From assembly GCA_944332395.1 (NCBI GenBank), contig CALVJV010000014.1, forward strand, positions 1 to 40,689: 40,689 bases of DNA. Direction: 5' to 3'. Positions 4,378 through 14,627 of this stretch are shown one piece after another (position 1 is the first letter of the stretch; every line of letters begins with the position of its first letter). The notes below the pieces were generated by a model, which was not told the origin of the DNA, made no database searches, and was given only the letters and a program-made list of their open reading frames with translations. The DNA is from an uncultured Clostridia bacterium. GTDB lineage: Bacteria > Bacillota > Clostridia > Christensenellales > UBA1242. The position numbers and the translations under genes were made by a program.

Positions 4378-4935
4378 TTAGTCATGCCCAGGCATTAACT
4401 TGTTATATTTTATTAATTTTATTTTCTCTAAACTTTTTCTCATTTCGTCTGGTGACGACCCCAACAAATCAGTTCTTCCAATATCCTGAAAAAATAATGT
4501 ATCTCCGCTAAACAAAATGCTATCAAACAAATAGCACATTGAATCTTTCGTATGTCCTGGGGTGGCAAAACACTTTATTTCATATGTATCAAATTTAATA
4601 ATATCACCATCTTTTACAGGAATTAAATTATTAATTAGATATTTTTTATTTTCACCAAAATAAGCAGAAGCATTAAAATTAGGATTTTTTATAGTTTCTG
4701 ACAAATATTTTGAACCATAAACAGTAATATCTTTAAATTCCTCTATATTATTTATATGATCAAAATGACCATGAGTAATCAAAATTCCAGCAATTGGCTT
4801 TGAACATTTTTTTTTAATTAGGGCAACTGAACAACCCGCATCAATTACAACACAAGAATTATTCAACTCAATAATATAAGTATTTTGCTCTAAAATGCCC
4901 TTAATTTTATAAATTTTATAGTTTTTTTCTTCCAT
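4378..4935 (-). CDS. Metallo-beta-lactamase-fold hydrolase, C-terminally clipped
   Basis: 185 residues of the glyoxalase II/YcbL type. The zinc ligands are visible: THGHFDH (His55, His57, Asp59, His60), GHT (His128), the bridging aspartate in FSGDTLF (Asp145) and the last histidine in MPGHD (His184). The chain stops one residue after that histidine. Family members usually continue for about 15-25 more residues (G-P-x-T-T ... N-P-F/Y), so the C-terminal segment is missing although all metal ligands remain. The start overlaps the end of the DUF1461 gene by 20 bases, so the two are translated from one message. Likely a thioester or related hydrolase; substrate unknown. Confidence 0.8.
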   Translation of the reverse strand: MEEKNYKIYKIKGILEQNTYIIELNNSCVVIDAGCSVALIKKKCSKPIAGILITHGHFDHINNIEEFKDITVYGSKYLSETIKNPNFNASAYFGENKKYLINNLIPVKDGDIIKFDTYEIKCFATPGHTKDSMCYLFDSILFSGDTLFFQDIGRTDLLGSSPDEMRKSLEKIKLIKYNKLMPGHD

Positions 4936-5599
4936 TTTCTCTTTTTTTTATTATTATACTCTTGATGATTGATGATAACGCAAATAAAAAAATTATGCAA
5001 GCAATTAATATTCCCATATTTAAAAAAAACCGACTAGGTAAAATTTTTATTATTGGATCAGTGACTTCAGAAAATTGCCAATTTGTCTTCCCAAAAAAGA
5101 AAATTTTATGAAACAAATTAAATAAAAAATCAAAATTAATAAGAGCAACCATTAAAACAGAAAAAGAAATAAATAAAATAAAAATTCCAACCCAAAATCC
5201 AACTGTATGTCCCATTATTTTTTTTAATTTTATATATTGCAATTTATCAAAAATTGTCAATAGAGTCAATAACCCCACGCTAACCACAAACACAATATTA
5301 TTAATTTTAATAAGTTTTCTACAGTCCTCAAAATGAGCTTTACCCTCTGGCGAATAATCAAAAACTCCCAAATCAAAATCCTTGCTTTTTGTCAAAAAAT
5401 CCAAACAAGCATCATACCCATCAATTATTTCTCGTTTTGAATAACCAGAATCCTCTACAATATTCAACAAATCAATTTGTGAATAATATAATGGTCTAAA
5501 ATAAATAACAAACGAAAAAGCAGCTGTTACCCAAAACAATAATAGAACAAAAGCAAAGAGGAAAGTAAAAACACTACTGCAAAATTCTTTTTTTATCAT
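4916..5599 (-). CDS. DUF1461 (TIGR01906-type) integral membrane protein
   Basis: 227 residues with four membrane segments: about 8-33, 100-116, 133-155 and 192-213. The extracytoplasmic loop after the first helix contains SPEGKAHFEDCRKL and the loop after the third contains KTNWQFSEVTDPIIKILP, both typical of the DUF1461 family of Bacillota membrane proteins. The function of the family is not known. The start codon overlaps the stop of the upstream HExxH gene (ATGA, 5599-5596) and the end overlaps the hydrolase gene, so three genes form a coupled operon. In this setting it may anchor or support the neighbouring hydrolases, which is a guess. Confidence 0.8.
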   Translation of the reverse strand: MIKKEFCSSVFTFLFAFVLLLFWVTAAFSFVIYFRPLYYSQIDLLNIVEDSGYSKREIIDGYDACLDFLTKSKDFDLGVFDYSPEGKAHFEDCRKLIKINNIVFVVSVGLLTLLTIFDKLQYIKLKKIMGHTVGFWVGIFILFISFSVLMVALINFDFLFNLFHKIFFFGKTNWQFSEVTDPIIKILPSRFFLNMGILIACIIFLFALSSIIKSIIIKKRENGRKKL

Positions 5600-8163
5600 T
5601 TTTCCACCGAATGGGCACCCATATCAAAAACACTTACATAAGAAAAACTTTGTTTTTGAATCCTCTCAATCGTTTTTCTATATTCCGCCTTGATATCATC
5701 TTTACTTTTTTTATAAATATGTTTACATAAAAGATCAACAGGCAAGGAAATGCTGTATTGCCCATCGTACTTCATTTTCTTAATATTTAAATCTAATTTA
5801 TATTCTTTCTCTATTGCTTGCAACACTTTAAACAAAGGCGAATAAAAATTTACATAAGTTTTCCCATTTGGTTCAAAGTCACATCCATAACTTAAAAGGC
5901 CATCGTTGGTATAATCTACAAAGTCATTGACTATTCTGTTATTTATAAATATTGCCAAATCTTTTTTTATACCATCGTCGTTGATTTGTTCACTATTTGA
6001 CATTTTTAAAAGCAACTTAAATAAATCAATAGTAATTTGATAGTTTGAATTATTATATGATGAAACGATCATATTGAACACATCTCTAAAAGAACACTCT
6101 TTGCTTAATACGTCAACAACTTTAGGTAATAATAAATAATTTTTTGTTTCTTTATTAAACCGCAATTCATCTAATATTTTCGTAAAGATTTCATTTTTTG
6201 AATCTCTATCTAGAACGCCATCTTGCAGCAACATATTCAAAACAAAACCTTCATCGTCAATTAACGAATAATCACATATTTCTTTAAATTCTTTTTCGCT
6301 TAAATCCTCAATTATGCCTACAAAACGTTTTTTCGCTAATAAAAACAAAATATTAGCCTCTTCCATCATATCTTCCATAGGTTGACTACAATCTATGCCC
6401 CAATTTAAATGGTTTGCTATACTAGACAAATATAAAAACATAGGTGGCTTTTTATCAACATTTTTTAGTACATCACAATAATAATTCATAGATGCAGCAA
6501 TTGGCCGATCATTGGAAAATTTATTTAAAATTAATCTAGTATTCTCATTGGTATTTTGAGCATTCTTTCCATAATATTTTTTATAGAACATATCTCTCTG
6601 GCTATTCGTATAATTGCGATCTAGATCTTTTATAACAAGTCTAATCCAATTTGGGGCTTGTTCATTTGTAAAAGTCATAATTTTTAATAATAACTTAGTA
6701 TATAAAAAAGCTTCATACTCTCCCATAAACTTTATGTCTTTTAAAAACTCACTTTCACTTGGAATAAATGTTTTATAAAAATCTTTCAAATAGAGCAACT
6801 CTTTTTTATCTTTGTCAGAATTAGCAATCATCTCCCTAACAATAGACATTGTCACCATCATTTCGGCAATATCAAAATTATGATTCAGAACTCTATCCTT
6901 AAAAATGTTTTTAAATCGATCATAATCCATAAATTCCCTTAATTTCACATTATTTAATCTATCCAAAACTAAGTCCAACATATCTTGGTCATCAACAAAT
7001 GTTCCCGTTTCCAAAAATTTATAATATTTTTCTATAAGTTTCTTTTCTTGTTCCACAGATAAACACTTTACAAATAAACTAAATAATATTTTGTCTTTCA
7101 GCATAATGCAATAATCAAATAAGTCACTAACTTCATCGTCTCTTAGCTTTCGTATTTTTTCTCCGAAAACATCATTTATCTTAAATAATAAGTCCTCTTT
7201 ATTTTTCAAGATCAAACGTAGCAACTGCTCATTTGTTAATTCATTTATAGAAGTATCAAACAATGCAGATATATTTTCATTATAACTCATAGATTCAATA
7301 TATTTTGATAATGCAGATACTTTTTTCATAACAAAATTTTTACCTAGTTTGCAGACTCTAATAATTTCGTTATCTTGCGTATTTGATTGCCAAATATCAA
7401 ATAATATGTAAGCAAACTTACAAGCAAAAACATTTGCATCAATTTCAACAAATTGTTTTCTATACTTATCAAAATCTATTAAAGAAACTATATATTTAAT
7501 ATGGCTATCAGACGATTCTGGATTGATTGTTTTTAGTATGTTATATATCAAGTTATAATTTGATTTATCATTAAACGAATAATAAGGTTCATTACTTTTA
7601 TAATGAAGTTCGTTAGTCAAATCTATATCCCTATTTTGCAAATAATGACGATATTCGTGTGCAAATGTAAAAATTTTAGCAAATATATTATCTATATCTA
7701 CATTTTCTTCATATTCTCCCCCATCAAATATAACAATACCTAATGAGTCCCGATATTCCCCATTCTTTGCCTCATCACCTTGGTCTGGTCTTTTAAAAAG
7801 AATGTCAACCTCTCCCATTAAAAATGGATTTGATTTTATCAGAGCCTTTAACAAATTTTGCAGTTTGTCATAATTTGAAAGATCAGAAAAACAATCTTTA
7901 AACAAACTTAACTGCTCTGCTATTTTATTTTTGGACATATTTACTTTTTTTTCACTTGATAATATTGAAGATCTTACATCATATGCCTTTCTATATCTAA
8001 AATACAAATCTTCAAATTCTTCTTGATCAAAAACAGCACTTCTATCATGTTTCAATTTTGTATGAGGAAATAACTGCAAAATGCTCGTTTCATTATTAAA
8101 CTTAACTACTTTACTCTTTCTTCCGGCTTTTTTTAAAAAGCCATCTCTAGTATAAAAATTCAT
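5596..8163 (-). CDS. Large HExxH zinc-metallopeptidase-like protein, unknown family
   Basis: 855 residues, start ATG 8163 behind AGGGTG (8176-8171). Residues 165-175 read TFAHEYRHYLQ, a zinc-peptidase HExxH motif (His169, Glu170, His173). About 67 residues later FVEIDANVFACKFA gives the third ligand candidate Glu240 in the E-x-x-A-N-x-F-A arrangement seen in gluzincins such as ImmA-type proteins. The remaining 600 residues have no motif I know and read as long amphipathic helices, resembling a helical-repeat scaffold. There is no signal peptide or transmembrane segment, so it should be cytoplasmic. It has its own promoter and heads the operon with DUF1461 and the clipped hydrolase. It is too large to be a simple ImmA; I cannot name the family. 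Confidence 0.65.
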   Translation of the reverse strand: MNFYTRDGFLKKAGRKSKVVKFNNETSILQLFPHTKLKHDRSAVFDQEEFEDLYFRYRKAYDVRSSILSSEKKVNMSKNKIAEQLSLFKDCFSDLSNYDKLQNLLKALIKSNPFLMGEVDILFKRPDQGDEAKNGEYRDSLGIVIFDGGEYEENVDIDNIFAKIFTFAHEYRHYLQNRDIDLTNELHYKSNEPYYSFNDKSNYNLIYNILKTINPESSDSHIKYIVSLIDFDKYRKQFVEIDANVFACKFAYILFDIWQSNTQDNEIIRVCKLGKNFVMKKVSALSKYIESMSYNENISALFDTSINELTNEQLLRLILKNKEDLLFKINDVFGEKIRKLRDDEVSDLFDYCIMLKDKILFSLFVKCLSVEQEKKLIEKYYKFLETGTFVDDQDMLDLVLDRLNNVKLREFMDYDRFKNIFKDRVLNHNFDIAEMMVTMSIVREMIANSDKDKKELLYLKDFYKTFIPSESEFLKDIKFMGEYEAFLYTKLLLKIMTFTNEQAPNWIRLVIKDLDRNYTNSQRDMFYKKYYGKNAQNTNENTRLILNKFSNDRPIAASMNYYCDVLKNVDKKPPMFLYLSSIANHLNWGIDCSQPMEDMMEEANILFLLAKKRFVGIIEDLSEKEFKEICDYSLIDDEGFVLNMLLQDGVLDRDSKNEIFTKILDELRFNKETKNYLLLPKVVDVLSKECSFRDVFNMIVSSYNNSNYQITIDLFKLLLKMSNSEQINDDGIKKDLAIFINNRIVNDFVDYTNDGLLSYGCDFEPNGKTYVNFYSPLFKVLQAIEKEYKLDLNIKKMKYDGQYSISLPVDLLCKHIYKKSKDDIKAEYRKTIERIQKQSFSYVSVFDMGAHSVEK

Positions 8164-8222: not shown

Positions 8223-8402
8223 TTAATCAATAGGTATAAATAGTTTGCATTTACACTCACCTGAATGAATAAACTCATCACATGGACAAAGAGTACTTTC
8301 ATCAGCTACTAATCGACAAGGACAATGCCCATTCTTTTTTTCTACTCCATTAATAATTTTATTAACATAATCCAAGTCTGGATTTAATCTATATCCTTTC
8401 AT
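8223..8402 (-). CDS. Ferredoxin:thioredoxin reductase catalytic subunit, short form
   Basis: 59 residues: ATG 8402-8400, stop 8225-8223. The start overlaps the thioredoxin stop as ATGA, so the two are translationally coupled. The protein carries three Cys-x-Cys pairs: C27-P-C29, C39-P-C41 and C50-K-C52 (NGHCPCRL, LCPCDE, ECKCKL). This is the pattern of the FTR catalytic chain, where four cysteines hold a 4Fe-4S cluster and two form the redox-active disulfide that reduces thioredoxin. Plant and cyanobacterial FTR has CPC-x16-CPC-x8-CHC; here the first gap is only 9 residues, the second is 8 as expected, and the CHC histidine is lysine. No variable subunit is visible nearby. It most likely passes electrons from ferredoxin to the adjacent thioredoxin. 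Confidence 0.85.
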   Translation of the reverse strand: MKGYRLNPDLDYVNKIINGVEKKNGHCPCRLVADESTLCPCDEFIHSGECKCKLFIPID

Positions 8403-8707
8403 AAAATTTTCTCTACCGCTTTTAAAATTTGAGCACCAGTCATGTATCCCTGTAACTTTGTAACAGGCTTTCCAGCCTTAAAGATAATCATAGTCGGTAC
8501 CGCATTAATATTAAAACTAGAAGCCAATTCATAGTTGTTATCAACATCAATTTTAACTATTTTTAAACCTAGGCTGTTCTTCTCAATTTTTTCCAATTCT
8601 GGGCCCAACAACTGACAAGGCCCACACCATGATGCAAAAAAGTCAACCAAACATAACTTATTTTCACTTATTATTTTTTCAAAACTAAATTGATCTGCGT
8701 ATTCCAT
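8399..8707 (-). CDS. trxA: Thioredoxin
   Basis: 102 residues, full length for a thioredoxin, with the active site ASWCGPC (Cys28, Cys31) after the central strand, the cis-proline loop NAVPTMIIF and a final amphipathic helix. The start ATG 8707 follows GGAGG. It reduces disulfides in the cytoplasm. In this operon it is followed, with an overlapping ATGA, by an FTR-type reductase subunit rather than a flavin thioredoxin reductase, so its electrons probably come from ferredoxin. Confidence 0.93.
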   Translation of the reverse strand: MEYADQFSFEKIISENKLCLVDFFASWCGPCQLLGPELEKIEKNSLGLKIVKIDVDNNYELASSFNINAVPTMIIFKAGKPVTKLQGYMTGAQILKAVEKIL

Positions 8708-8740: not shown

Positions 8741-8770
8741 AATATAGTATTTTTGCTATTTTTTTGTCAA
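8741..8770 (-). promoter_or_regulatory. Promoter of trxA-FTR operon
   Basis: TTGACA (8770-8765), 18-base spacer, TATATT (8746-8741), followed by GGAGG ahead of the trxA start. Confidence 0.75.
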
Positions 8771-8830: not shown

Positions 8831-9442
8831 TTACATATTCGCAAACTTATTATAATCATCAAATCTCTTTTCCAACGAAACCGCATCTCCAGATCTTTTA
8901 AACGCATGTTTTTCTGACCAAAGTCTCCATTTGTTATGTAATTTTATGCATGGAATATAGGCTTGCGCGTTTGGAATTATTTCTAAATCTTGAATGTATG
9001 GACAATTCATAATGAGAAAAAATCTATATCCAAGAATGGTATTAATTTTGTTAATTTTAACATTATTGTTTAGCATGTTCTGGGCAACCCCATTAAAAAA
9101 CATTAAATAATTTCTTATTCCAGTTATATCATTTTCATTAAATAAGTTAACCTTTCTTCGTTTTAAACACTCCAATTTGTATTGTATAATTTTATTTGTA
9201 GGAACTTCTATAAATTTGGAATAAGCCGTAATAATCTCATTACATAAATCAATAGAATTATTCTTTTTGTATTCAACAATTGATGCATAAGCGCCTATAA
9301 TTGTTGCAAGAACCGTAACTATATCAGCAAAAATGCTAGATGCATCAGTAAATAGATAAACAAAAAACATACAAATTAAAATGGCAACACAAAGTCCAAT
9401 TAAAAAAGCATATACTAATTTTTCACTGCTAATTTTTTTCAT
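8831..9442 (-). CDS. Two-helix membrane protein, tandem paralogue B
   Basis: 203 residues, start ATG 9442 behind GAGGGG. Two hydrophobic helices lie at about 10-31 and 37-55, and the rest is a soluble, mostly helical domain probably in the cytoplasm. The C-terminal core LGYRFFLIMNCPYIQDLEII, then Y-x-P-C-I-x-L-x-x-x-W, lines up with paralogue A just upstream (FGDMFFVAMNNKYIQEREII, then Y-x-N-I-I-x-L-x-x-x-W). Proteins of this shape are common hypotheticals in Clostridia, but I know no function. The start lies 14 bases inside the end of paralogue A, so the pair is co-translated, which favours a heteromeric complex or a recent duplication that diverged. Confidence 0.7.
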   Translation of the reverse strand: MKKISSEKLVYAFLIGLCVAILICMFFVYLFTDASSIFADIVTVLATIIGAYASIVEYKKNNSIDLCNEIITAYSKFIEVPTNKIIQYKLECLKRRKVNLFNENDITGIRNYLMFFNGVAQNMLNNNVKINKINTILGYRFFLIMNCPYIQDLEIIPNAQAYIPCIKLHNKWRLWSEKHAFKRSGDAVSLEKRFDDYNKFANM

Positions 9443-10070
9443 AAATACCCCTCAACAATAATTTGTAATCCAGCGGTGAATCTGGATAAGGACAAGGAAT
9501 ATTCCGCTTAATTCTATACTTATACCATTCTTCGTACAATTTTATAATGTTAATATAATGTTCTTTATACGGAATTATTTCACGTTCTTGAATATATTTA
9601 TTGTTCATTGCAACAAAAAACATATCACCAAAGCAATCGTCTAAGTCCTTTAAAACCAAATTTCCAGAAAAATACATTATTCCAATATTTTCAAAAAATT
9701 CAAGATATTCTATAATGTTGATCGAATCATCATAAATAAAGTTATCTAAATCATTTGTTGTATTTTTATTTCCAAGTTTTCCATCAAATGAATAATCTTT
9801 TTCATTATCAGTTTTCTTTAATTTATCTCTTAAATAAATAATGCCATTAGATTTTAATAATACATTATTCATATTTGATAATAGTTCACTAGATGTTTTA
9901 ATATTAGTTCTTTTTAATTGTATCCAAATAATAACAGCTCCTAAAGTTGTGATAATTGTAGTTATGAGTGATGCTATAATTTCACCGATTTTGTCCGTCA
10001 ACATTGCAAAAACAACAGCAACTATAACAACAATACATGAAATATAAATTATTGCATTACTTCTTTTCAT
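9429..10070 (-). CDS. Two-helix membrane protein, tandem paralogue A
   Basis: 213 residues, start ATG 10070 behind a run of seven G (complement of 10073-10079) serving as ribosome binding site. Helices at about 7-23 and 29-50, then a soluble domain with an acidic, Asn-rich linker (about 78-115) missing in paralogue B. The conserved core is at about 140-182: FFVAMNNKYIQEREIIP, then HYINIIKLYEEW. Sequence identity to paralogue B is modest but spread along the length, including the order of membrane helices, so they come from one duplication. No catalytic motif is visible. First gene of the two-gene unit. Confidence 0.7.
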   Translation of the reverse strand: MKRSNAIIYISCIVVIVAVVFAMLTDKIGEIIASLITTIITTLGAVIIWIQLKRTNIKTSSELLSNMNNVLLKSNGIIYLRDKLKKTDNEKDYSFDGKLGNKNTTNDLDNFIYDDSINIIEYLEFFENIGIMYFSGNLVLKDLDDCFGDMFFVAMNNKYIQEREIIPYKEHYINIIKLYEEWYKYRIKRNIPCPYPDSPLDYKLLLRGIYEKN

Positions 10071-11850: not shown

Positions 11851-12519
11851 TTACAATCCCTTTATTTCCGTTTTAACATATACCGAGGCAATCTCTCCTG
11901 CCTGCTTTACATATTCCGAATTATGGGGTTTTTCTGGCAAATCTCCTTCATGCGTTTGTTGTCTATATTGCTGAATTGAATATAGTCTGGAGCCTTGTAT
12001 CCACTTTGCTATTTCTCTTATATCTTCGTGGTGCAAATCTGGAGAAAAAGTTGTTCTAAATTCATATTCTATTCCACTATTTTGTATAAGTTTTATACTT
12101 TCTTCAATTTTTTTCATATCAATAATACGCCTTGTTATTTGCTGATATTTATCTTTTGGCGCCTTTATGTCCATTGCAATATAATCTAATAACTTTTTAT
12201 TTAATAAATCTTTTACTATTAAAGGATTTGTCCCATTCGTATCAAGTTTAACCTGAAAGCCCAAGGCCTTGATTTCCTTAATTCTGTCGGCCAAATCCGT
12301 TTGGAGAGTTGCCTCTCCACCCGAAAAGACTACACCATCTATAAACCCTATCCGCTTCTTCAAATATGCAATTATCTCATCAAATTTTATATTTTCATCT
12401 TTAATTCCTGCATTATGACAATACCAACATGACATATTACAGCCAGGGGCGAATATCACTGTTGATATTCGCCCAGGAAAATCTAAAAATGAATTTTTGG
12501 TCCAACCGGCAATTTTCAT
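11851..12519 (-). CDS. nrdG: Anaerobic ribonucleotide reductase activating protein
   Basis: 222 residues. A radical-SAM enzyme of the NrdG2 type that installs the glycyl radical on NrdD using S-adenosylmethionine and a 4Fe-4S cluster. The cluster motif is PGCNMSCWYCH (Cys27, Cys31, Cys34), followed by the SAM-binding FSGGEATLQ. The start codon overlaps the nrdD stop (TAATG), so the enzyme and its activase are made together. The longer form with a C-terminal extension past the core barrel matches the TIGR02495 group rather than the short E. coli NrdG. Confidence 0.92.
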   Translation of the reverse strand: MKIAGWTKNSFLDFPGRISTVIFAPGCNMSCWYCHNAGIKDENIKFDEIIAYLKKRIGFIDGVVFSGGEATLQTDLADRIKEIKALGFQVKLDTNGTNPLIVKDLLNKKLLDYIAMDIKAPKDKYQQITRRIIDMKKIEESIKLIQNSGIEYEFRTTFSPDLHHEDIREIAKWIQGSRLYSIQQYRQQTHEGDLPEKPHNSEYVKQAGEIASVYVKTEIKGL

Positions 12520-14627
12520 TAACCTTCGACTTGCTCCTTCTTTATAACATATTTCTTTCTTTCTGCATATTCTTCACGTTTGCCATTGTTAAAGCACTGA
12601 ACCGGCCTCAAATATCCAACAACACGTGTCCAAACTTCTGCAGGTTTTCCACAAGACGGGCATGTAAAATGTTCGCCAGCAATATACCCATGATCTGGAC
12701 AAACACTAAATGTAGGAGTAAGAGAAATATATGGCATTTTTGAATTCTCAAACACTTTTTTAATCAAATTTTTTGCAATATTAATGTCGCTAATTCTTTC
12801 TCCCAAGTATAAATGCTGCACCGTTCCACCTGTGTATAATGATTGTAATTCATCTTGCAGTTCAATTGTTTCGAAAATATCATCTGTAAAGCCAACCGGC
12901 AATTGTGTTGAATTTGTATAGTATGGCTCATTCGTTCCAGCCGTTATAATGTCTGGATATTTTGCCCTATCTTTTCTTGCCAAACTATAACTCGTTCCTT
13001 CGGCTGGAGTCGCTTCCAAATTATACTGATGACCAGTTTCTGCCTGAAATTGAACCATCAATTCACGCATATAATTCATGACTTTTTTGGCAAACTCCTG
13101 ACCTTCTTGAGTCGTCAAATCTTTACCCATAAAGTTCAGTAAAGCCTCATTCATACCAACGATTCCTATAGTATTAAAATGGTTTGACCAATATTCTCCC
13201 GTTCTCCTCTTAATATCTCTCAAATTATTTACCGAATATGGATATAAATTTTGTTCACTTTGCTCTTCAATTATTTTTCTCTTTATTTCTAAACTTGTTT
13301 TTGCCACATAACACAAATATTCTAATCTTTCAAAAAATTCCTTCTCTGATTTTGCAAGATAACCAATTCTAGGCAAATTTAAAGTTACAACTCCAATAGA
13401 ACCAGTCATTGGATTCGAACCAAACAGACCTCCACCTCTTTTGCGCAACTCTGTAACATCAAGTCTTAATCTACAACACATTGAAACAGCATCTTCTGGT
13501 GACAAATCACTATTTACATAATTAGCAAAATAAGGAATTCCATATTTGCATGTCATCTCCATAATAGAATCAGCAACCGGGCTGTCCCAATCAAAATTTT
13601 TAGTTATGTTAATTGTTGGAATGGGAAATGTAAACACTCTACCAGTCGCATCACCATCAACCATGACTTCACAGAAGGCCTTATTAAACATATCCATTTC
13701 AGCCTGAAATTCACCATAGGTATATTCTTCTGAGTATTGTCCTCCAACAACAATTGGCATATCTTTTAGGGTTTTTGGCACTTTAATGTCTAATGTGACA
13801 TTAGAAAATGGACATTGAAAACCTACTCGAGTTGGAACATTCATGTTAAATACAAACTCTTGCAAGGCTTGTTTTACTTGCTTATAGTCCAAATTGTCAA
13901 GCCTAATAAATGGTGCGCAGTATGTGTCAAAACTACTCCAAGCCTGGGCGCCGGCACATTCACCTTGCGTGGTAAAAGTTGCATTTACTATTTGTCCCAA
14001 AAATGATCGCAAATGTTTTGCTGGTCTGCTATCCATTTTGCCAGGAACCCCACCAAATCCATTCATCAATAGCTGTTTTAAATCCCAGCCCGCACAATAT
14101 GGCCCAAAAAATCCAAGATCATGTATGTGCAAGTCACCAGACAAATGCGCTTCCCTTACTTCATTTGGATAGATTTCATGCAACCAATATTGTTTTGTAA
14201 AAGTTTCACGAACATAATTGTTTAGCCCATTAACAGACCTTTGTTGGTTTGCGTTCTCCTTAATTAACCAATCTTTATCGTTTAAATAATCGCCAAACAT
14301 ATTTATTGTCGCCCCTATAAGTGCATTCATTTCTCTTGCACTAGAACGCTTTTCTCTATATAAAATATAACTTTTTGCGGTTTGCGCATGACCATTTTCA
14401 ATCAATACTTTTTCAACAATATCTTGAATTTGTTCAACTTCAGGGATTGTTCCACGAAACATTCTTTCTATTTCAACTACAACCTCATCGGATAACGTCT
14501 GAGCTTTATCCTTATCGTTTCCACCACAAGCTATTGCAGCTCTAAATATTGCATTTGTAATTTTGGACTGATCAAAATCTACTACTCTTCCGTCTCTTTT
14601 CTTTATTTTTGTAATAGTTATATTCAT
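12519..14627 (-). CDS. nrdD: Anaerobic (class III) ribonucleoside-triphosphate reductase
   Basis: 702 residues. Makes dNTPs under strict anaerobiosis. The first 95 residues are an ATP-cone allosteric domain (KIKKRDGRVVDFDQSKI). The catalytic barrel contains ECAGAQAWSSFD and GSIGVVTLNLPRIG. Near the C-terminus is the zinc site CPDHG ... CPSCG and then the glycyl-radical loop GYLRPVQCFNNGKREEYAER, with the radical on the glycine in N-N-G-K. ATG 14627 follows AGGAGG. The promoter carries two NrdR boxes, so expression should fall when dATP is plentiful. It is oxygen-labile, which implies an anaerobic organism. Confidence 0.96.
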   Translation of the reverse strand: MNITITKIKKRDGRVVDFDQSKITNAIFRAAIACGGNDKDKAQTLSDEVVVEIERMFRGTIPEVEQIQDIVEKVLIENGHAQTAKSYILYREKRSSAREMNALIGATINMFGDYLNDKDWLIKENANQQRSVNGLNNYVRETFTKQYWLHEIYPNEVREAHLSGDLHIHDLGFFGPYCAGWDLKQLLMNGFGGVPGKMDSRPAKHLRSFLGQIVNATFTTQGECAGAQAWSSFDTYCAPFIRLDNLDYKQVKQALQEFVFNMNVPTRVGFQCPFSNVTLDIKVPKTLKDMPIVVGGQYSEEYTYGEFQAEMDMFNKAFCEVMVDGDATGRVFTFPIPTINITKNFDWDSPVADSIMEMTCKYGIPYFANYVNSDLSPEDAVSMCCRLRLDVTELRKRGGGLFGSNPMTGSIGVVTLNLPRIGYLAKSEKEFFERLEYLCYVAKTSLEIKRKIIEEQSEQNLYPYSVNNLRDIKRRTGEYWSNHFNTIGIVGMNEALLNFMGKDLTTQEGQEFAKKVMNYMRELMVQFQAETGHQYNLEATPAEGTSYSLARKDRAKYPDIITAGTNEPYYTNSTQLPVGFTDDIFETIELQDELQSLYTGGTVQHLYLGERISDINIAKNLIKKVFENSKMPYISLTPTFSVCPDHGYIAGEHFTCPSCGKPAEVWTRVVGYLRPVQCFNNGKREEYAERKKYVIKKEQVEG

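Follow-up and report, generated by a model that had tools for sequence, protein, structure and literature searches.

Stand-alone catalytic proteins of the ferredoxin-thioredoxin reductase (FTR) type are already known outside phototrophs, as are the ferredoxin disulfide reductase (FDR) of Methanosarcina and the small protein Gp5 of the phage crAss001. In a recent survey of thioredoxin systems in bacteria and clostridia, the enzymes counted were flavin TrxB, and the term FTR is absent from the paper (PMC10880999). The same paper uses the joint presence of GxGxxA and HRRxxxR motifs as the criterion for an NADPH-dependent thioredoxin reductase.

Here, we analyzed a stretch of 40,689 nucleotides from an uncultured Clostridia bacterium (assembly GCA_944332395.1, contig CALVJV010000014.1), which we call the window. 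Our results indicate that a 59-residue FTR encoded in it most likely recharges the thioredoxin of this small fermenting bacterium with electrons from ferredoxin rather than from NADPH, and perhaps its only DNA-precursor enzyme as well.

A 59-codon gene overlaps trxA

The initial annotation had pointed to a 59-residue frame that shares ATGA with the trxA stop and encodes three CxC pairs in FTR order. This frame is present on the minus strand (8402-8223), with the translation MKGYRLNPDLDYVNKIINGVEKKNGHCPCRLVADESTLCPCDEFIHSGECKCKLFIPID. The features of this part of the window are as follows.

8223..8402, minus strand: ftr, stand-alone FTR/FDR-type catalytic protein of 59 residues (open reading frame, PF02943, phmmer, model and fold matches)
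8399..8707, minus strand: trxA, thioredoxin with WCGPC, 102 residues (PF00085, E 8e-26; TIGR01068, 99.9 bits, above cut-off)
8399..8402, minus strand: ATGA stop/start overlap of trxA and ftr (read from the sequence)
8741..8770, minus strand: promoter-like TTGACA-18-TATATT upstream of trxA (consensus match only; the region has 10 such sites against 6.7 expected)

Judging from the ATGA overlap, translation of trxA and ftr is likely coupled. The window holds one frame with three CxC pairs, against 0.005 expected in Markov-resampled sequence of its composition. In addition, ftr differs from its relative at locus L002 at 13, 7, and 24 sites in codon positions 1, 2, and 3, respectively, with 16 of the 29 changed codons synonymous, and differences from close homologues in general fall mostly in third codon positions. 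Given both the expectation for triple-CxC frames and the third-position bias, we consider ftr to be a gene, and a chance or non-coding frame is ruled out. Small homologues are annotated in public records (crAss001 Gp5, 65 residues; Vescimonas, 81 residues), and the Vescimonas protein, encoded beside trxA, is named there “ferredoxin-thioredoxin reductase catalytic domain-containing protein”. The suggestion that the product is one of the smallest enzymes of its kind did not hold up, as homologues of similar size are common and the ftr product is not exceptional within its subfamily.

Several other genes surround the pair on the same strand. An open reading frame for an 855-residue protein (5596-8163), which matches nothing in Pfam or NCBIfam and contains HEYRH, a motif resembling that of metalloproteases, lies 59 bases downstream of ftr; a terminator-like site was looked for between the two and none was found. 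This frame is overlapped by a gene (4916-5599) that Pfam assigns to the Lit family (lipoprotein intramolecular transacylase). Between trxA and the nrd genes described below lie two overlapping genes (8831-10070) whose products, small membrane proteins, look related; one of them weakly matches DUF4760 and SLATT_1.

The protein matches the catalytic core of FTR and FDR

Pfam FeThRed_B (PF02943) scores 20.8 bits on the 59-residue protein (E 4e-4; cut-off 22) and exceeds the cut-off on its homologues (23.6-24.4 bits). With the protein as a phmmer query against the PDB, the top match is 4tpu, and a profile built from 38 homologues retrieves FTR/FDR catalytic chains only (4tpu, E 5e-9; 7pwe; 2pvd; others). 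The AlphaFold model has a pLDDT of 94.5. All 13 convincing Foldseek matches of this model are FTR or FDR chains, with TM-scores up to 0.76, and VIA-align places it on such chains with Z of 6.4-6.8 and an rmsd of 1.6-2.0 Å over 58-59 residues. Its 59 residues can all be superposed on 2pvd (residues 24-94) at 1.7 Å; therefore, the protein corresponds to the bare catalytic core, without terminal extensions. Altogether, sequence searches and the predicted model identify the protein as a stand-alone catalytic core of the FTR/FDR type.

A gene for the variable chain (PF02941) gave no match in the window's genome, which is 90% complete, while a Synechococcus control did give one. The absence noted in the initial annotation thus stands, and we rejected it as a special feature: the variable subunit is reported to be exclusive to oxygenic phototrophs and normally absent elsewhere (PMC9025218, citing Balsera 2013), so that its absence from this genome is expected.

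Six invariant cysteines and a possibly displaced histidine

The motif of the protein is CPC-X9-CPC-X8-CKC, with cysteines C27/C29, C39/C41, and C50/C52, encoded as follows.

8325..8327, minus strand: His26, directly before the first CPC (tally of homologues)
8316..8324, minus strand: first CPC (C27, C29), with C27 a predicted cluster ligand and C29 the predicted half of a redox disulfide (cysteines invariant in the alignment; roles taken from the FTR family)
8280..8288, minus strand: second CPC (C39, C41), predicted cluster ligands (both invariant in the alignment; roles likewise from the family)
8247..8255, minus strand: CKC, with C50 a predicted ligand and C52 the predicted surface redox cysteine (both invariant; CxC variants tallied)

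Since the aligned FTR chain 2pvd has spacings of X16 and X8, it is the first spacing alone that is shorter here, by seven residues, while the second is equal; the earlier remark that the first spacing is shorter than in photosynthetic FTR was therefore correct. A scan of species genomes found 54 loci with a relative of the 59-residue FTR. Conservation of the six cysteines had been proposed as a check, and all six are kept in each of 78 distinct homologues. Among these 78 proteins, 70 have X9/X8 spacing, 7 have X9/X15 with CHC, and 1 archaeal protein has X14/X12.

The histidine of the CHC pair is reported to play a part in FTR catalysis. In the window's FTR, lysine takes this position between the last two cysteines, and a histidine precedes the first CPC. 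The latter arrangement holds in 66 of the 70 proteins of the X9/X8 type, whose last pair is C[KCRV]C. In the bacterial loci, the X9/X15 type has tyrosine before the first CPC and CHC as its last pair. The initial annotation had not mentioned this pattern. From this tally, the catalytic histidine of classical FTR may have moved, in the X9/X8 subfamily, to the residue before the first CPC.

A protein with the FTR fold could also bind metal without redox catalysis, for instance as a carrier of zinc or of a cluster. Six cysteines in so small a protein and a catalytic histidine position that is not conserved would fit this explanation. However, the two non-ligand cysteines on which disulfide chemistry depends do not vary, and FTR is associated in genomes with thioredoxin and nrdD/nrdG, so that we regard a purely metal-binding function as very improbable.

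FTR often pairs with thioredoxin and largely excludes TrxB across genomes

The proposed survey for trxA-FTR pairs showed that they recur: trxA adjoins FTR in 28 of the 78 distinct loci. It immediately precedes FTR in 23 of them and immediately follows it in 5, so that the pair occurs in both orders. Two further loci have the order trxA, desulfoferrodoxin, FTR. Roughly half of the FTR loci lack a cytosolic trxA next to FTR; the neighbors there are spmA/spmB, a signal-peptide-bearing thioredoxin-fold gene, or nrdG. In a Hadesarchaeon (L055, 4842-5615), FTR and thioredoxin domains are joined in one chain, both above Pfam cut-offs.

Thioredoxin is present in all 28 FTR-positive genomes examined. 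For the 95 genomes related to genome G071, a TrxB-family protein occurs in 6 of the 31 with FTR vs 51 of the 64 without (Fisher p = 2e-8, a value that takes the genomes as independent of shared ancestry). G071 itself lacks TrxB and has a single thioredoxin, encoded 26 bases away from FTR; the weak match to TrxB in this genome is a 416-residue protein without the TrxR signature, which is absent from the TrxB-like matches of about 416 residues in all three TrxB-negative genomes inspected (G071, G081, and G073). Among FTR-negative relatives, the TrxB of G123, G105, G096, and G127 lacks both NADPH motifs, and that of G147 keeps both. On their motifs, the former four fit the ferredoxin-dependent flavin enzyme FFTR; therefore, FTR would often replace another ferredoxin-driven enzyme.

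Other neighborhoods were recorded alongside. Genes resembling spmA/spmB (spore maturation) are divergent from FTR in 12 loci (L002-L006, L008, L012, L047, L050, L051, L077, and L081). A signal-peptide-bearing thioredoxin-fold gene adjoins FTR in 18 loci (L009, L011, L015, L017, and 14 others), most of which have a radical-SAM gene on the other side of FTR; the association with a signal-peptide-bearing partner may hint at extracytoplasmic disulfide reduction. On a Vescimonas fastidiosa plasmid (L132, 1913-6024), an oxidative-stress-like cluster comprises desulfoferrodoxin, rubredoxin, FTR, 4Fe-4S proteins, trxA, and an FAD oxidoreductase.

The window's genome also encodes a TrxB-family flavoprotein

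The window's own genome (0.88 Mb) encodes two thioredoxins, a clostridial-type 2[4Fe-4S] ferredoxin, and a POR-family 2-oxoacid:ferredoxin oxidoreductase. It also encodes one TrxB-family flavoprotein (336.7 bits, at G000:C9:30182) with an intact CATC, so that we rejected the statement that this genome has no thioredoxin reductase. The expectation that TrxB would be missing thus applies to most FTR-positive genomes and fails for this one. Of the two motifs, the flavoprotein has GxGxxA (as GGGNSA) and lacks HRRxxxR (HILKELQ in its place); by the published criterion (PMC10880999), it is possibly not an NADPH enzyme. Given this flavoprotein and the second thioredoxin, FTR need not be the sole reduction route, and it is possibly one of two in this genome.

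These findings bear on the possibility that FTR is accessory or a relict here, with thioredoxin reduced mainly by the flavoprotein. The TrxB-family match with its intact CATC is consistent with this possibility, as is the absence of FTR from 33 of the 35 genomes of the window's family. Against it, the flavoprotein without HRRxxxR may not use NADPH, and FTR is intact, overlaps trxA, and has changed mainly in third codon positions relative to its homologues. We therefore consider an accessory or relict FTR improbable.

With 2 of 35 genomes carrying it, FTR was rejected as a marker of the family, and this distribution suggests transfer or repeated loss. An FTR gene tree, aimed at dating a transfer, had too few columns to place the window's row.

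A possible link to class III ribonucleotide reductase

Farther upstream, on the same strand as trxA and 3.1 kb from it with other genes between, lie two genes of a class III ribonucleotide reductase.

11851..12519, minus strand: nrdG, activase of class III ribonucleotide reductase (NrdG2 TIGR02495, 210 bits)
12519..14627, minus strand: nrdD, class III ribonucleotide reductase, NrdDh4-like (TIGR02487, 582.7 bits; aligned to Thermotoga maritima NrdD, 4coi/4u3e)

The NrdDh signature consists of Tyr-Cys, an (S/M)CCR motif, and a hydrophobic finger-loop residue, and the window's NrdD carries it (YC, MCCR, and the finger loop GGGLFGS, as aligned to T. maritima NrdD) in the set described for NrdDh4 (PMC4493059). 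For the members of this subclass that have been studied, the reductant is a protein: thioredoxin for N. bacilliformis, and a protein factor for T. maritima, whose enzyme is inactive with formate (PMC4493059). A class I/II reductase (PF02867) gave no match in the window's genome, and NrdD is the only ribonucleotide reductase found.

Taken alone, the 3.1-kb distance in the window is a weak link to FTR. In relatives, nrdD-nrdG-FTR runs with FTR last and without trxA occur at L096 and L099-L104, and FTR lies near nrdG-nrdD at L097 and L098; in the examples tested, the two proteins were confirmed as NrdD and NrdG by NCBIfam. The NrdD of the former runs has QCCR, a variant of the SCCR motif, and that of L097 (7986-10130), a locus that also holds FTR, has a redoxin-like C-terminal extension that weakly matches glutaredoxin. 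In Methanosarcina barkeri, the class III enzyme is reported to be served by a ferredoxin disulfide reductase (Wei 2015, as cited in PMC9176816). The gene runs, the NrdDh4 signature, the lack of a second ribonucleotide reductase, and the M. barkeri report together make NrdD a plausible client of the thioredoxin/FTR path, and possibly an essential one. We put the chance that it would be a main client of reduced thioredoxin at about even.

The same observations can be read differently, namely that FTR, as a reductase of the FDR type, mainly serves an acceptor other than TrxA: NrdD (directly or via another redoxin) or further disulfide proteins such as the thioredoxin-fold protein with a signal peptide, with trxA one of several pairings. 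Runs without trxA, the glutaredoxin-like match at L097, the 18 loci with a signal-peptide-bearing partner, and the cited account of M. barkeri (PMC9176816) all point this way, whereas the ATGA overlap, the single-chain FTR-thioredoxin fusion, and the exclusion between FTR and TrxB across genomes argue for TrxA as the acceptor. On balance, we find a main acceptor other than TrxA rather unlikely.

Proposed mechanism and its implications

Thioredoxin reduction is, on the gene-level evidence, the best-supported role of FTR. The best explanation, which we hold to be very probable from the sequence, the model, and analogy with known enzymes, is that an FTR core with a predicted [4Fe-4S] cluster and redox disulfide moves ferredoxin electrons to TrxA. 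The earlier proposal of a minimal ferredoxin-driven thioredoxin system is in keeping with this explanation; cysteine conservation, trxA pairs, TrxB exclusion, the predicted FTR/FDR fold, and the genes for ferredoxin and POR agree in supporting it. Counting against the explanation are a Pfam score slightly below the cut-off, lysine at the position of the CHC histidine, the TrxB-family flavoprotein and second thioredoxin of this genome, the low frequency of FTR in the family (2 of 35 genomes), and the many FTR loci that lack a neighboring trxA.

In the predicted mechanism, C27, C39, C41, and C50 would bind one [4Fe-4S] cluster beside a redox-active C29-C52 disulfide. This ligand assignment comes from the alignment with solved chains and from what is generally known of FTR. 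Ferredoxin, reduced for instance by pyruvate:ferredoxin oxidoreductase, would dock on one face of FTR and give electrons singly to the cluster, which would help cleave the disulfide in two one-electron steps. The freed surface thiol of C52 would then attack the disulfide of TrxA, whose gene directly precedes ftr, and the second electron would free the product. By analogy with FTR, we infer the cluster and the roles of its ligands, and that ferredoxin is the donor and TrxA the acceptor.

A broader proposal is that, in many small-genome Bacillota, an FTR core of 57-90 residues has replaced flavin thioredoxin reductases, that the resulting ferredoxin-to-redoxin line feeds a redoxin-dependent class III ribonucleotide reductase, and that the catalytic histidine of CHC has moved before the first CPC. 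We advance it tentatively, at somewhat less than even odds. If true, DNA precursor synthesis would be tied directly to fermentative ferredoxin, not to NADPH or formate. If the best explanation above holds, many uncultured bacteria seemingly without thioredoxin reductase would use a tiny iron-sulfur enzyme. Its very small FTR core would then lend itself to the study of disulfide cleavage by one [4Fe-4S] cluster, and a ferredoxin route to class III ribonucleotide reductase could be tested in bacteria. Within a limited literature search covering few subscription papers, three things appear to be new: the minimal X9/X8 subfamily with its histidine shift, the way in which it and FFTR-like TrxB exclude each other, and the nrdD-nrdG-FTR runs that recur.

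Comparison with known systems

The closest PDB sequence match, M. acetivorans FDR (4tpu), shares with the window's FTR the order of the six cysteines and the fold over 59 residues; it differs in its X14 and X12 spacings, its CYC, and its 173-residue chain, labelled rubredoxin. The FTR catalytic chain of oxygenic phototrophs (PF02943; 2pvd, 1dj7, 7c2b) is alike in fold (Z 6.8, rmsd 1.7 Å, 59 residues), in its six cysteines, and in its second spacing, whereas the window's FTR has no variable chain, X9 in place of X16, CKC in place of CHC, and no terminal extensions. In Desulfotalea psychrophila (7pwe), an FDR domain of the same fold and motif (36% identity) is fused to glutaredoxin; in the window, FTR is a separate protein whose gene overlaps that of thioredoxin.

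Small FTR-type proteins with short spacings also occur in phages, in crAss001 (Gp5; L133, 2271-2468) and in Lak megaphages (Prevotella phage Lak-B1, L134, 3001-3168). They are 33-40% identical to the window's FTR and differ from it in being phage-borne; the crAss001 gene is annotated, lies within a tRNA array, and encodes CHC, and the Lak homologues are unannotated. Finally, within the same bacterial class, FFTR has the same predicted task of passing electrons from ferredoxin on to thioredoxin (PMC10880999, PMC9025218), but it is a TrxB-family flavoprotein unrelated to FTR, and in relatives FTR and FFTR-like TrxB replace each other.
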